In this document: piece after piece, positions 20,520 through 27,293 of the stretch
Numbering within the stretch: position 1 is the stretch's first letter
Layout: the number at the start of each line of letters is the position of its first letter
Assembly (NCBI GenBank): GCA_018222765.1
Contig: JAAEZT010000002.1
Coordinates: forward strand, 249,866 to 302,812
From: a bacterium
Lineage (GTDB): Bacteria; Verrucomicrobiota; Verrucomicrobiia; Verrucomicrobiales; Akkermansiaceae
DNA length: 52,947 nucleotides
Direction: 5' to 3'
Position numbers and translations under genes: made by a program
Notes under the pieces: generated by a model
Database searches by the model: none
What the model saw: only the letters and a program-made list of their open reading frames with translations
What the model was told of the DNA's origin: nothing

Positions 20520-21869
20520 CTATGCTTTCATCGCACCTATCTCGCCAGTACTATCCGCGAAGCGCTCTTTATCAACTCCCATCATCTTAGCCTGGGTCAG
20601 CCAGAGATTCGCCAACGGCGTGCCTTCGGGCATATTAATGTGTTGCCCGCTCTTGGTCTCTTTCCCGCCACCGGCAACAATGATCGGAAGGTCATTATAC
20701 TGATGAGTCGAGCCATCGCCCAAGCCTGAGCCATAAGTGAAGAGCGTATTGTCGAGCAAGGTCGATCCATCCGCTTCCTCAACACTTTTCATCCTTTCCA
20801 AAAGATAAACGTATTGCTCCATGTGAAAGCGATCCACTTTGAGGAGATCATCAATCATCTTAGTTTGGTTGTGTGACATCCCGTGGTGACTCCGCGGCTT
20901 GTCGAACAAACCTTCAAACTTATAAGGCGTATCCCATCGCTCCGGTCCGACCATGAAGGTCGTCACATTGGTCAGCCCCGTCTGCAAAGCCACCACCATG
21001 AGATCGCCCATGAGGCGAATATACTCACCACGCGGCAAATACGCTTCAGGCGGCTCATCGAATTTCACTTTCGACAGCTCACCCTTCATTTTTTCAAGAC
21101 GGTCCATCTGCACTTCAATAGCACGGATGGAATCAAAGTACTCCGCGAACTTTTGCCCGTCCTCATATCCCAGGTCCCGCTTTAAAGAATGCGCGTCTTC
21201 TAACACGAGGTCGGTGACATCACGATACTTGTCAATCTCCCGAGTCGAAAACAAACGGTGATACATCTTGCGAGGATCACGAATAGACGGCGCGAGATGC
21301 CCGGTTCCATACCAAGAAATATTGTCAAAGTAGATCGACTCCTTGTTGTCCTTGTGGCTGTTGCAACTGAACTCAAGAGTCGAAAAGGGCGTCTTTGTCC
21401 CCACCACATCAGCAACCAAATGATCGAGCGTCCGGTCCAATGGCCACGCCGTTCCTTTAATCGTGTAAGGTGGGGCGCTACTCAGGTAACAGGAGGCACA
21501 TTGCGCGTGAACATCTGTCCCTTGTTGAAAAGTCCGGTCCATTCCGGTGATGAGGTTGATCTCGGATTTGAACCGCTCAAGCGGCTGCATCGTCGGAGTG
21601 AGCTGCTCCAGTTTCTTGACGGAATAATTCGGATCCTGCTTTCCGAGAGACCTGCCCAACTGACCCAGATTTCCCTTCGGAATGACATCATCTGCCTCGC
21701 CCGGGAAAAAACCCCGCCGCACCACACCAATCGGAACATAGAAATGCGCCATGCGCTTCGCTACCCGGGAAGCCGCCGCAGGAGCCGCAATACTCTCCAA
21801 CCATGGCAAGGCTAGAGCCGCGCCACCAATTCCGCGCAGAAAATCCCGTCGTGTATTCCCTCTCATCAT
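20520..21869 (-). CDS. DUF1552 protein, Tat-exported
   Basis: The 449-residue protein has a twin-arginine signal (RRDFLRGIGGAALALPWLES) and DUF1552 hallmarks: RMAHFYVPIGVV, TGMDRTFQQGTDVHAQCASCYLS, FSCNSHKDNKESIYFDNISW, and a C-terminal TLFTYGSGLGDGSTHQYNDLPIIVAGGG. Function is unknown; DUF1552 genes almost always follow a DUF1592-type cytochrome gene, as here. The TAG stop of that gene is directly followed by this ATG (0 nt apart), so translation is probably coupled. A second ATG one codon on (MRGNTRRDF) is equally possible. Confidence 0.93.
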   Translation of the reverse strand: MMRGNTRRDFLRGIGGAALALPWLESIAAPAAASRVAKRMAHFYVPIGVVRRGFFPGEADDVIPKGNLGQLGRSLGKQDPNYSVKKLEQLTPTMQPLERFKSEINLITGMDRTFQQGTDVHAQCASCYLSSAPPYTIKGTAWPLDRTLDHLVADVVGTKTPFSTLEFSCNSHKDNKESIYFDNISWYGTGHLAPSIRDPRKMYHRLFSTREIDKYRDVTDLVLEDAHSLKRDLGYEDGQKFAEYFDSIRAIEVQMDRLEKMKGELSKVKFDEPPEAYLPRGEYIRLMGDLMVVALQTGLTNVTTFMVGPERWDTPYKFEGLFDKPRSHHGMSHNQTKMIDDLLKVDRFHMEQYVYLLERMKSVEEADGSTLLDNTLFTYGSGLGDGSTHQYNDLPIIVAGGGKETKSGQHINMPEGTPLANLWLTQAKMMGVDKERFADSTGEIGAMKA

Positions 21870-23909
21870 CTATTTCGTCTTGGGGTTCATCTTACTCAAA
21901 AACGGCTCGCTCGTCACGATTTCTCTCAAAAGCGTTTGTATCCGGTAACCGTCCTTCGCGGTCACTTCTGAGATCTTATCCAAGGCCAATCCATCCGTCA
22001 CCCCCAACTCGCGCCCCAAACTGAAGGCCAACAAATGTCCTGCCAACCCCCTCGTAAAGCGATCTTTCTCAGCGAGAACGGCATCCTTAAATTCCACCAC
22101 ATTGGAAAAGGTATGCTTCCTGAAAAGAACCCCTTCCATATCGACCTTGCGGCCATTCTCATACTTCTCCCGCCATTGCCCTACGGCATCGTAGTTCTCC
22201 AGTGCAAAGCCCAGTGGGTCGATCTGTTCATGACATCCACGGCAATCCGCCCGTTCCCGGTGCATTGCCAAACGCTCCCGCAAGGTGAGGTGTTCTTCAC
22301 CGTCTTTCGGTTCCTCGCCGAGCGGGGGCACGTCAGCCGGCGGGGGCTCGGGCGGATTATTGAAAATCACTCCCGCGATCCACGCCCCGCGCGTAATAGG
22401 TTGGGTTCTCTCCGGACCCGAAGTCATCGTCATCACGGCGGCATTGGTAATGACTCCACCGGTTCGACGGTCAGTGACAGGAACGCGATCAAAACTCAAC
22501 ACACCAACTCCGCCCCGCTTCTTTTTAGCGACCTCACCCAACTCGCCATAGGCCTCTTCGAGATGGCCTGATCGATAGGTGAAGTCCGAATCAATCAACT
22601 GCGTGATCGACTGGTTCTCGATCAGGACGGTCTCGAATAAAAGCAAGGGCTCCAGCATCATGTGCATGCTGTCGCGATACCTGCTAAAGTAAAACTTCGG
22701 GAACTTCTTGAGGTCCGGCACCGAGGAAATAATCCGCTCCAATTGCAGCCACTGCGATGGAAAGCTATCGCAAAATCGTTTCACCTTCCGGTCCTTCAAC
22801 ATTCTGGTGAGCTGTCCCGAGAGAACATCTTCCCTCATCAACTCGCCAGACTTCGCCAGCGCGAGCAATTCTTCATCCGGCAAGCTTCCCCAGAGAAAAA
22901 AGGACAAACGCGAGGCCAGATCAAAGCCGTCCACCTTCCCGCTTCCTTCGCTCGCGCCATCGTAGAGATACAAAAACTTCGGCGAGGAAATCACTGCCGA
23001 CGAAACCATCTTCATCGCCTGCGTGTAGTCCACCCCCTTCTTCATCTGCCCCACGACATAACCCGCATACCGATCCAATAGCTCTGAAGTCACCGGGCGG
23101 CGAAAAGCTTTGGTCAAAAATTTCTCTAATCTCGGCCGCACCAACGCTTCGGGATTCGTCCCTTTGGGAGGGAGCAAGAAAAACTCCTTCCAAATTCCCA
23201 CCCGCCTCGGGCCGAAGTCCTTACTCTCGACAATCGATTGACCCAACTTCAGAAAAGACTCCATTAAGAGCGGAGAAAGCGAAAGGTGATCCGCTTGATT
23301 ATCATAACCATGCTCTGCCCTCAGATCCTGTGGAAAAGCGGCCACTCCCGCCAGCCGTGGCTCGATCATTTGGGACTTCCCGAGCGGACGGCTCCCCACC
23401 GTCACCCGGTCCGCCATCTTCCCAGTCTCCGGTTTGAAGTATCCCTTGTGGTCCCGCATCATGCGCTCCGGCAGCGTGAAGACATTACATTTCAGGCCAA
23501 ACAAATCCGTCACCGCATTGTTATACTGAAAGCGGTTCATCCGCCGAATCGGAGATTGGAGATACTCCTTCTTCCCCGCCACCGATTGATGGAGCAAATC
23601 CTCCAGATCTCCCAAAAACTTCTTCCTCGCCTCCGGCTTCAGCTGCGGTTCATCCTCCGGCGGCATTTCCTCAAAATCGATCGCCTCCACAATACTCTCC
23701 AGCAACTTCGGCTGCGCCTTCAACTCCTCCAAACTCCCAATCTCCAATAAATTCACCTTCCCCTTCACTTTCCCGTCCTTGCCATGACAGGAGATACAGT
23801 TCTCCTGAAATACCCCCAGCACACCTTCGGCAGCCTGCAGACCCCCGGCAAAAGCCAGAACCAGAAAGATCCCAAAGGCTCTCCGAATCATTGCCACGAG
23901 CCTATTCAT
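21870..23909 (-). CDS. DUF1592/DUF1588/DUF1585 cytochrome-like protein
   Basis: The 679-residue exported protein (MNRLVAMIRRAFGIFLVLAF signal) begins with a Planctomycete-type cytochrome c motif CISCH (Cys38-His42) in NCISCHGKDGKVKGKVNLLE. It continues with the DUF1587-DUF1595-DUF1592-DUF1588-DUF1585 chain: RRMNRFQYNNAVTDLFGL, FLTKAFRRPVTSELLDRYAG, FDLASRLSFFLWGSLPDEEL, and a second haem-type motif CRGCHEQIDPLGFALENYDA. Such proteins are predicted multi-haem periplasmic or surface proteins with no proven reaction. The upstream ATG at 23951 adds a poor leader, so 23909 was chosen. First gene of the pair with DUF1552. Confidence 0.93.
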   Translation of the reverse strand: MNRLVAMIRRAFGIFLVLAFAGGLQAAEGVLGVFQENCISCHGKDGKVKGKVNLLEIGSLEELKAQPKLLESIVEAIDFEEMPPEDEPQLKPEARKKFLGDLEDLLHQSVAGKKEYLQSPIRRMNRFQYNNAVTDLFGLKCNVFTLPERMMRDHKGYFKPETGKMADRVTVGSRPLGKSQMIEPRLAGVAAFPQDLRAEHGYDNQADHLSLSPLLMESFLKLGQSIVESKDFGPRRVGIWKEFFLLPPKGTNPEALVRPRLEKFLTKAFRRPVTSELLDRYAGYVVGQMKKGVDYTQAMKMVSSAVISSPKFLYLYDGASEGSGKVDGFDLASRLSFFLWGSLPDEELLALAKSGELMREDVLSGQLTRMLKDRKVKRFCDSFPSQWLQLERIISSVPDLKKFPKFYFSRYRDSMHMMLEPLLLFETVLIENQSITQLIDSDFTYRSGHLEEAYGELGEVAKKKRGGVGVLSFDRVPVTDRRTGGVITNAAVMTMTSGPERTQPITRGAWIAGVIFNNPPEPPPADVPPLGEEPKDGEEHLTLRERLAMHRERADCRGCHEQIDPLGFALENYDAVGQWREKYENGRKVDMEGVLFRKHTFSNVVEFKDAVLAEKDRFTRGLAGHLLAFSLGRELGVTDGLALDKISEVTAKDGYRIQTLLREIVTSEPFLSKMNPKTK

Positions 23910-24115
23910 TTTCACCAAACAACACACGTCCATGAAATACGGCGACTCCATTCCTTTTCATTCAAGGCCAGTCAAAGAAGTTTAGCCTGTGGCCGCACCA
24001 TTTATTGACCCCCTTTGGAGTGTTCCTAGTGATCTGGGCGAAATAATGCGTTTACGTGGAAGGTTTAATTTATTCCACCTTGCACGATCAACTTCTCTTC
24101 AAGCCAATCATTCCA
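23910..24115. other. Upstream region of the DUF1592-DUF1552 pair
   Basis: About 200 nt that should carry the promoter of the minus-strand cassette. Several short frames exist on both strands, but none looks like protein. No RNA gene or hairpin with a T-run was seen. Confidence 0.35.
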
Positions 24116-24331: not shown

Positions 24332-25033
24332 TTAGCTTTGTGAAAGCTCATTTATGAGCTTATCGTCGGTAGCTTCGACGCCCACAACGACACCATCAAC
24401 GATGATTTCAGCAACACATCCAAGGAGTCCGTCAACCCGGCGACCGCCAGGCTTGCAAGGTGCGCCGCCTCATCCGCCACCCGATTTTTGACGGGAGTAA
24501 CGGACTAAGTTCACAGGAGCGGTTCTCTGGGGATCAGTGCTACTCGCATAGAGAGTTGCAACATTGAGAGTTCCTTTTGTTTGAGCAATTGAACCGGCAC
24601 CGTTCTCGGCATCTTTACGATGAAAAATGGTGTAGCGAACTTTCACATTCTTGACGTTCTGCTTGCTCCAGTTTCGGAGCTCCACGGTGTATCCTGCCGG
24701 AGTCGTTTTAGTGCGTTCGGTATCCGACCGAGTCGTTGTTGGCTTATCTTGCCAAAGATCAAAGTCGACGCGGATCGCATTGGAAGCGGCCACGGCATTT
24801 GCATTTTCTTTGACATAAGCGATATCCTTGGCACTGAGGCGACTCAGCTGGAATGTCAAAAGCTTGGTGCGTGACTTCCGAACGGTCACCGTCCCCTTTT
24901 TTTCATCGTAACCTGTGAGGGTTGCCTCAAAAGTTTTCGAACCATCTGAACTTGTGAAGGTGCGCTGTTCCAGGGCACCTGCTGGGAGACCCATGGCCAG
25001 GCATCCAAGGAATGTTATCAAAGATTTTTTCAT
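24332..25033 (-). CDS. Candidate selenoprotein: exported SHD1-domain protein with in-frame TGA
   Basis: The gene encodes 233 residues if the TGA at 24470-24472 is read as selenocysteine (residue 188). It has a signal peptide (MKKSLITFLGCLAMGLPAGA), an SLA1-homology-domain-1-like fold at about 22-78 (FTSSDGSKTFEATLTGYDEK ... FQLSRLSAKDIAYVKE), then a beta-rich domain. The TGA falls in KSGGG-U-GGAPCKPGG. The tail continues in the same frame for 45 codons (RRVDGLLGCVAEIIVDGVVV, then GVEATDDKLINELSQS) to TAA. Possible redox partners of U188 are Cys193 and Cys206. A SECIS-like hairpin follows the TGA, and a terminator follows the TAA closely. Alternative: a recent nonsense mutation giving a 187-residue protein. 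It lies 117 nt downstream of the DUF1080 gene, probably in one operon. The family is not one I know as a selenoprotein family. Confidence 0.78.
24433..24455 (-). promoter_or_regulatory. SECIS-like hairpin after the TGA of the SHD1 gene
   Basis: On the minus strand CAA, a bulged G, then CCTGGC, loop GGTC, GCCGGG and TTG form nine pairs (one G-T). The loop begins 24 nt after the TGA, inside the 16-37 nt range reported for bacterial SECIS elements. The GGUC loop with a bulge below it is like that of the Escherichia coli fdhF element (loop in GCAGGUCUGC), and it is identical to the loop of the second candidate at 27011-27030. Confidence 0.72.
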
Positions 25034-26243: not shown

Positions 26244-27293
26244 ATGATTAGAACAGTCGTCTCCTTGACCTTCGCGATGATGATCGGGTTCCTTCCGGTC
26301 GCGTCCATGGCTCAAGACACCTCCGGTCCAACGATCTCCGAAATCATTAAAACTCACGAAGACGCCGTCGAGGTCCTCTATGAGAAGATGCGCGGAAAAT
26401 CCCGAGAAGAACAACAAAAGCTCTACAAGGCCGAATACCCCAAACCTGACCAGGCAATTGAATTAATCACCGCTCTCGTCACCGCAAATCCGGGAGGCTC
26501 CGCCAGCCTCGATGGCATCGATTGGCTTCTAAGATACTCAGGCCAAAAAGGGCTCGATCCCGCCCTCTACAAGGTGCTCGAAACACATCACCTCCACCGC
26601 GACAAGCTCCAAGCTATCGTTCTGAAAATGGTCCGGAGTCGAACTCCCGAAACGCAAAACTTTCTCACCACGGTCAGCGAGAAAAGCAAAATTAAAGATG
26701 TCCGTGGTGCCGCAATTCTCTCCCTCATGAAAAGAATCGAGCGCGACAAAGAAAAAGAAGACGAACATACCGCGCTTGCCAAAAAATTATTCGCCGAGCA
26801 TCCCCACCTTGTCATCAATGGCCGCAACGTCACCAAATCCATCAAAGCCAAACGCGAGGCCGAAGAGAAACTCGCCATCGGGAAAGTGGCTCCAGAGATC
26901 ATTGGAAAAGATGTTGATGGCAATGAAATGAAACTTTCCGACTATCGGGGGAAGATCGTCGTCCTCGACTTTTGGGGTGATTGGTGAGGCCCCTGCAGAG
27001 CAATGTATCCCCACGAGCGGTCGCTCGTTGCGCGGATGAAAGACAAGCCTTTCACCATCCTGGGTGTGAACAGTGATTCTGCCGAAAGGTACAAAACCGC
27101 CATCAAAGAAAACGAAATTACCTGGCCTTCATTTTGGGACGGCGGAAAAACCGGTGGCCCCATCGCAACCGATTGGGCCGTCCGGGGTTGGCCCACGATC
27201 TACATCCTCGATACCGAGGGCGTGATCCGATACAAGAATACCCGCGGAAAGGCCATGGATGAAGCCGTCGATGCCCTGATGGAAGAGCTCTAA
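26244..27293 (+). CDS. Selenoprotein: exported TlpA/redoxin-like thioredoxin-fold protein with UGPC active site
   Basis: Read through the TGA at 26985-26987, the frame gives 349 residues. A signal peptide (MIRTVVSLTFAMMIGFLPVA) is followed by a helical domain (about 25-215) and a redoxin/TlpA domain: GKVAPEIIGKDVDGNEMKLS, then VVLDFWGDW-U-GPCRAMYPHE. Sec248 takes the place of the first cysteine of the CGPC motif, and Cys251 is the resolving cysteine. The fold continues with FTILGVNSDSAERYK and the cis-proline motif RGWPTIYILD. The upstream and downstream parts are in the same frame. Selenium at this position would give a highly reactive disulfide reductase or peroxidase outside the cytoplasm. 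A SECIS-like hairpin follows. The frame is open further upstream, but that part overlaps the divergent DUF1080 gene and lacks a signal peptide. Confidence 0.93.
27011..27030 (+). promoter_or_regulatory. SECIS-like hairpin after the TGA of the thioredoxin-like gene
   Basis: ACGAGC and GCTCGT (27013-27018 and 27023-27028) form a perfect 6-bp stem around the loop GGTC, with one further C-G pair after a mismatch. The loop starts 31 nt after the TGA, within the bacterial SECIS range of 16-37 nt. The hairpin lies within codons for HERSLV. SelB is expected to bind it and deliver Sec-tRNA. Confidence 0.78.

Follow-up and report, generated by a model that had tools for sequence, protein, structure and literature searches.

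An internal UGA codon that appears to be read as selenocysteine in a small exported protein of a marine bacterium and its relatives

In a marine bacterium of the family Akkermansiaceae and in its relatives, a UGA codon inside the gene of a small exported protein appears to be decoded as selenocysteine (Sec). The gene lies in a stretch of 52,947 nucleotides (contig JAAEZT010000002.1 of GenBank assembly GCA_018222765.1, positions 249,866 to 302,812), called the window below, and its features are collected in Table 1. On the minus strand, an ATG at 25033 opens a frame in which the TGA at 24472-24470 is codon 188, followed in the same frame by 45 sense codons (GGAPCKPGGRRVDGLLGCVA...) and a TAA at 24334-24332. 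A preliminary description of this DNA had proposed a selenoprotein from the same TGA, 45 codons and TAA, all of which were found as described upon re-reading, and its Sec reading of the TGA is now supported by the conserved tail, the presence of the Sec machinery and a Sec column free of tryptophan. Judged from sequence comparisons, the UGA at codon 188 is very probably decoded as selenocysteine by the ordinary bacterial pathway, with SelA, SelB, SelD, tRNA-Sec and a downstream SECIS element. The family is new to the sources searched. Its kind, a SECIS-directed selenoprotein, is already known, and the drifting pair of Sec and Cys residues is its distinctive trait.

Table 1. Positions of the candidate selenoprotein gene, its parts and the neighbouring UGA-containing gene in the window
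Feature	Position	Strand	Basis or remark
Selenoprotein candidate gene	24332..25033	-	233 residues including Sec188, plus TAA; translated with TGA=U; homologues full-length
Probable signal peptide, residues 1-20 (MKKSLITFLGCLAMGLPAGA)	24974..25033	-	By eye: K-rich start, hydrophobic core, small residues at end
SHD1-like domain, residues 24-77	24803..24964	-	AlphaFold2 model, PDB match 2hbp
C-terminal domain, residues 87-233, with Sec loop	24335..24775	-	Alignments A1, A2, A3
Putative Sec codon UGA, residue 188	24470..24472	-	Sec-or-Cys column in 45/45 selected A3 rows
Cys193 codon, partner of Sec188 (U-x4-C)	24455..24457	-	Partner Cys/Sec within 10 residues in 42/43 non-redundant members
SECIS hairpin, 8-bp stem, loop GGUC (24442-24445)	24434..24453	-	Base pairing and comparison
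Intrinsic terminator-like hairpin 3' of TAA	24283..24306	-	10 pairs, 7 GC, then TTTTTT
Exported ResA/TlpA-like thioredoxin, WGDW-U-GPC, second selenoprotein candidate	26244..27293	+	TGA 26985-26987 = residue 248

The gene product and its place among known families

The best reading of the product is an exported two-domain protein, in which an N-terminal SHD1-like module is followed by a C-terminal domain with a Gly-rich Sec/Cys loop. Sec188 sits in this loop, SGGG-U-GGAPCKPGG, and the tail past the UGA holds D201, G205 and G214, which are invariant or nearly so in the alignments. The AlphaFold2 model, computed from an input of four near-identical sequences, has a mean pLDDT of 44.5; residues 24-77 alone are modelled with confidence (block means 58-89), and the C-terminal domain is poorly modelled. 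The top Foldseek match of the model, confident for residues 24-77 only, is the solution structure of Sla1 homology domain 1, 2hbp (probability 1.00, TM 0.73 on the target, E 0.019). The SHD1 domain named in the preliminary description is suggested by the fold match of these residues; the SHD1 cut-off of Pfam was not reached. For the window protein, SHD1 was absent at E up to 10 and no Pfam model scored above its cut-off; across 21 members of the family, Pfam SHD1 was weakly reached by two, with a best E of 0.01. The probable likeness to SHD1 (PF03983, 2hbp) is that of the N-terminal domain, and many other frames in these bacteria align over about residues 10-90 only; Sec188 belongs to the second domain. 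For the C-terminal domain, where the structure model is poor, no thioredoxin-like match was found in NCBIfam, Pfam or the PDB sequences. A profile search of the PDB sequences returned a single match at chance level (E 0.53), and the best match in PHROGs had an E of just 0.075.

As also described previously, an intrinsic terminator lies shortly downstream. A terminator-like hairpin (24306-24283) starts 25 nt past the TAA, and its stem is largely retained in three near relatives; the scanned kilobase holds two such sites, against a mean of 0.9 in shuffles.

No NCBIfam or Pfam model names the family. The window protein matched nothing in NCBIfam (release 20.0) with E as high as 1. Five weak matches came from the 21 members, one member each and E 0.01 at best, none of them to a selenoprotein model. 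A 2026 inventory counts 119 families or subfamilies of prokaryotic selenoproteins, and its Table 1 has no SHD1-like entry (PMC13188914); in that inventory, differing Sec motifs on one architecture are set apart as separate subfamilies. GOS_A to GOS_C were reported as hypothetical families (PMC2398784). The models for GOS_B and GOS_C, under the NCBIfam numbers given in PMC13188914, were matched by none of the 21 members. The literature on selenoproteins in Verrucomicrobiota or with SHD1 contained, by title and start of abstract and among the matches listed, no paper on the family. The earlier remark that it might be undescribed therefore holds for the sources searched (NCBIfam, Pfam, Table 1 of PMC13188914, and titles and abstract openings in the literature).

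The protein shares with formate dehydrogenase and SelD, which use SelB and a downstream SECIS, the in-frame UGA, the downstream hairpin and a genome with SelA, SelB, SelD and tRNA-Sec, but it is unrelated to them, exported, and without a Pfam match above cut-off. It adds a family of at least 19 genera in one order to the prokaryotic selenoproteome and would give these bacteria a further use of Sec decoding, next to fdhA and selD. Standard gene callers would end the genes of this family at the UGA.

The UGA codon, the Sec machinery and the downstream hairpin

Three relatives with 97, 97 and 95% identity keep both the TGA and the tail. Because both recur in these and in homologues down to 22% identity, their combination is more than chance. 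A comparison of synonymous and other changes, proposed in the preliminary description, gave 6 synonymous and 5 other codon changes in the tail among the three near relatives, too few alone to show selection. A protein search of 58 related genomes yielded matches in 44 of them at E up to 0.001, and among the matches listed there are 21 places with an in-frame TGA (two of them doubly), at identities from 100 down to 26%. Across the order, a profile of the second domain (A2) matched 130 of 386 genomes, and a homologue with in-frame TGA is present in at least 62 of the 386, from at least 19 genera and 5 families; these TGA counts are lower bounds, at most nine candidates having been scored per genome. 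The TGA-bearing homologues retain the tail; its absence from homologues, or unrelated tails in them, would have counted against the preliminary description. Beyond the order, the A3 profile matched 51 of 384 genomes of the class and 33 of 387 of the phylum. No TGA form from outside the order of the window was found among the matches listed for these genomes, and in the relatives from other orders that were inspected, the loop has neither a TGA nor a Cys pair.

The Sec column of A3 holds Sec or Cys only, in 45 of 45 hand-chosen rows (40 with Sec and 5 with Cys); the rows were selected for Sec or a Cys pair, and therefore the column shows the common position of the TGA and not a TGA in every relative. 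Fifty-six added rows without TGA, in which some genes stand twice, have at this column 39 gaps, 8 Cys, 4 Ser, 3 Thr, 1 Gly and 1 Glu. Tryptophan, which had been named beforehand as the sign of a nonsense mutation, was found in this column neither in A3 nor in the added rows; it does occur near the column in shorter loops of distant relatives (GWRW and similar). It should be mentioned that loci L022-L024 repeat the three genes of L018-L020 with 0 differences, so that these genes were counted once, and that L036, which is the gene L097, was left out of A1 and A2 together with L032. L133 was left out of the Sec counts because its TGA falls outside the domain. Genome G249 has a TGA among the matches listed, and its locus is outside the sequence comparisons. 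In L032 (genome G024, SelA-positive), the frame ends ahead of the Sec loop and near the contig end, as in a broken copy or at an assembly edge.

The Sec machinery, whose absence would have spoken against the preliminary description, was found complete in the genome of the window. SelA (411 bits) and SelD (374 bits, the selD gene itself with a TGA) were matched, as was SelB at 272 bits, over its cut-off, with the match spanning model positions 2-362 of 581. The tRNA-Sec scored 54 bits, and ARAGORN identified it as tRNA-SeC(tca). The TGA of a formate dehydrogenase (732 bits) lies within SRA-U-HAP. SelA is present, with E no higher than 1e-20, in 118 of the 386 genomes of the order, and 60 of the at least 62 genomes with the TGA form are SelA-positive (Fisher p 2e-34, kinship ignored). 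The two without a SelA match are G039, which is 83% complete and has a tRNA-Sec, and G259, which is 54% complete and in which the tRNA-Sec search gave no match. Fifty-eight SelA-positive genomes have no TGA form among the matches listed, and the family is therefore not universal among Sec users.

In the proposed mechanism, the UGA would be read as Sec through SelA, SelB, SelD and tRNA-Sec, together with the hairpin just downstream. The hairpin of the window has eight uninterrupted pairs and a GGUC loop at a spacing of 24 nt from the TGA; it had been described as a bulged stem of nine pairs, of which the eight pairs and the loop stand and the ninth, across a bulged A, is seen by eye only. According to the bSECIS rule given in PMC13188914, G is found in the first loop positions and the hairpin lies 16-37 nt downstream of the UGA. 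With uninterrupted stems required, 48 of 60 distinct UGA contexts follow this rule and 12 fail, compared with 386 of 6000 synonymous-codon shuffles. A score for hairpins with GU in the loop, devised after hairpins had been seen, averages 8.6 in the 60 contexts and 1.5 in protein-preserving synonymous shuffles, and 52 of the 60 beat 95% of their own shuffles. A score of at least 7 was reached by 57 of the 60 contexts, by 568 of 20490 anchors at other places of these genes and by one of 11 Cys-pair genes (L129). L094, L101 and L120 have no hairpin under this score. Since the rows are related, the hairpin counts, like the partner counts given below, are not independent. The first UGA of L097, L123 and L126 also lacks a hairpin under the score, and one SECIS may therefore serve two UGAs.

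The loops GGUC, AGUU and their variants are found over differing peptides (GGRR, ASSR, FRGSR, SLSSR, ATRSQ, DPYGLWG). Among 26 distinct hairpins whose loop has 4 nt, each of the five innermost positions is paired in every row (130 of 130 cells), with 3 to 6 types of pair at each of them. As controls, partners slid by one to three bases pair in 38 to 73 of the 130 cells, and 3' arms redealt among the rows in at most 95. A stem of four or more pairs was the condition for including a row, and four inner pairs therefore form by construction; what was unselected in these rows is the fifth pair (26/26) and the variety of pair types. Pairs were counted without gaps, and a MAFFT alignment, in which GGUC and AGUU loops were shifted by one base, was set aside. 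Folded alone, the 54 nt of the window from the TGA are no stabler than shuffles (z +1.26), and their MFE structure differs from the SECIS hairpin, which is found only in the centroid. The hairpin of L060, in which the first 60 nt from the UGA are identical to those of the window, has -12.0 kcal/mol. An Rfam scan of five loci for SECIS families gave none, with just two unrelated weak matches. The same GGUC stands at the hairpin tip in fdhA and selD of this genome and in the thioredoxin gene of the window; the former two are the UGA genes for formate dehydrogenase (G000:C26:100419-102437, L211) and SelD (G000:C60:58831-59760, L051).

The Sec/Cys pair, its drift and its possible role

Sec is accompanied by a second chalcogen residue in nearly every member. 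Of 64 TGA members, 43 non-redundant Sec members are left once those with nearly identical loops are set aside. In 42 of the 43, a Cys or another Sec lies no more than 10 residues from the last Sec, where the abundance of Cys in other parts (28 of 8336 residues) would predict about 6.5%; L139 alone is partnerless. The partner is found at +1, +5, -1, -3, -5, -6, -7, -8 or -10 relative to the last Sec, and 0 to 9 residues lie between the two. Even between the two members of genus g8 the partner switches side, as seen in GGGUGGGPC (L064) vs GACUGGAPA (L065). Two Sec residues form the pair in UU (L117), U-x5-U (L072, L106) and U-x6-U (L097). The members with double Sec are L072, L097, L106, L117, L121, L123 and L126, with the two directly adjacent in L117. 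A quick tree of 61 rows, built with the loop masked out, requires no fewer than 17 changes among 10 states, and no fewer than 14 if the 52 rows with one of the 8 pair arrangements are taken by themselves. These change counts are rough minima, since an SH-aLRT of 95 or more is reached by only 18 of the 58 inner branches. On another tree, the Sec-Sec member L072 stands beside the Cys-Cys member L083 (SH-aLRT 88). The pair is kept while its order and spacing change, which suggests that the loop needs just two chalcogens in mutual reach. The drift also amounts to a set of natural experiments on the requirements of a working Sec/Cys pair, with the partner on either side of the Sec, with 0 to 9 residues in between, and with two Sec or two Cys.

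Cys-Cys pairs come mostly from genomes that lack the Sec machinery. In eleven homologues, the Sec column is occupied by Cys with another Cys close by, in the loops CRGGSC, CSSGGC, CPTC, CGGGGC and CC (L083, L085, L086, L088, L122) and, more distantly, CPKC, CPKC, CPTC, CPTC, CNC and CPTC (L118, L127, L129, L130, L141, L142). Ten of the 11 come from genomes without a SelA match (G299, G360, G381, G365, G155, G266, G274, G267, G345, G382); the exception is G124, with the CC form despite SelA and tRNA-Sec. The tRNA-Sec search in G299, G360, G381 and G365 gave six matches, and the four examined were all called tRNA-Ser(tga) by ARAGORN; one in G381 passes the Rfam score. In the SelA-negative genomes of L118, L127, L129, L130 and L142, the loop holds three Cys (e.g. 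DCETTSSCPKC), possibly a further Cys-based form.

Two known designs resemble the loop. Thioredoxin reductase carries a C-terminal GCUG arm, and a GCUG loop with adjacent Cys and Sec is present in L066 and L068. The family differs from it in that the loop is internal, the pair spacing is variable and no flavoprotein domain was seen. The thioredoxin-fold selenoproteins with UxxC or CxxU, as listed in Table 1 of PMC13188914, likewise have a nearby Cys, and L069 has CxxU; unlike them, the family gave no thioredoxin-like match in Pfam or the PDB sequences, and its Sec motif is inconstant.

We consider it fairly probable that the pair cycles between redox states and serves as a flexible periplasmic redox arm. 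The cycle would run between selenolate/thiol and selenenylsulfide (or diselenide in the Sec-Sec members), and the loop would carry electrons between an envelope reductase and an oxidised target. The reductase may be the selenothioredoxin whose gene lies at a distance of 1.2 kb in this genus. The family may well, with about as much to be said for this as against it, represent a new class of envelope selenoenzymes, probably of non-thioredoxin fold, in which a chalcogen pair is kept by selection while its order and spacing drift, the redox arm is defined by reach and not by a constant motif, and the neighbouring Sec-thioredoxin possibly serves it.

The main rival accepts the selenoprotein and takes the Sec/Cys pair as a clamp for a metal or metalloid (e.g. 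Hg, Cu, As) and not as a redox pair. CU motifs occur in SaoL, SaoC and HgcA, and several such families are tied to metals, as given in PMC13188914; a flexible Gly-rich loop with variable spacing would suit a clamp too. On the other hand, Sec-Sec pairs and spacings of as much as 9 residues would seem unusual in a defined metal site, and the 16 loci compared have no widely conserved neighbours, metal-related or other: besides the gene itself, no group occurs in more than two loci. A clamp is thus possible but rather unlikely.

Returning to the redox arm, the thioredoxin 1.2 kb away is a conceivable partner of the Sec/Cys protein, and this link is a guess because the thioredoxin gene was not a neighbour in the 15 other loci examined. 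Its gene (AhpC-TSA, 81.9 bits) is split into two ORFs by the standard code, a GGUC hairpin lies 31 nt past its TGA, and both the TGA and the gene arrangement are kept in three of three near relatives. Neither this second UGA gene nor the drift of the partner residue was part of the preliminary description. It is noted that the adjoining gene region (20520-23951, minus strand) encodes DUF1592/1588/1585 cytochrome-like and DUF1552 proteins side by side.

Other readings of the UGA

The UGA could instead have two outcomes, a truncated form of 187 residues with a role of its own and the full-length Sec form, in a ratio set by selenium supply. Just 45 codons lie past the UGA, and UGA also serves as a stop here: L025, L031 and L033 end in TGA by alignment, and so do 7 of the 29 open frames in the window that span 300 codons or more, one of these ends being the internal UGA of the thioredoxin. 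The tail, however, holds the invariant or nearly invariant domain residues D201, G205 and G214, and relatives that lack the UGA have the tail region as well, which makes a functional short form improbable.

With TGA as a stop the ORF ends after residue 187, as would follow from a nonsense mutation, an assembly error or an ordinary stop ahead of a chance open frame, but TGA in the same column with a homologous tail in at least 62 of 386 genomes, the SECIS and the machinery make all of these very improbable, and a pseudogene or chance open frame was ruled out by the TGA-bearing homologues. UGA as tryptophan in this lineage, to which the open frame alone would point, is least probable of all and was rejected, given that the Sec column is without Trp, TGA is used as a stop in the window and in family members, and the genome has a full Sec system with fdhA and selD of the UGA type in their usual Sec contexts.
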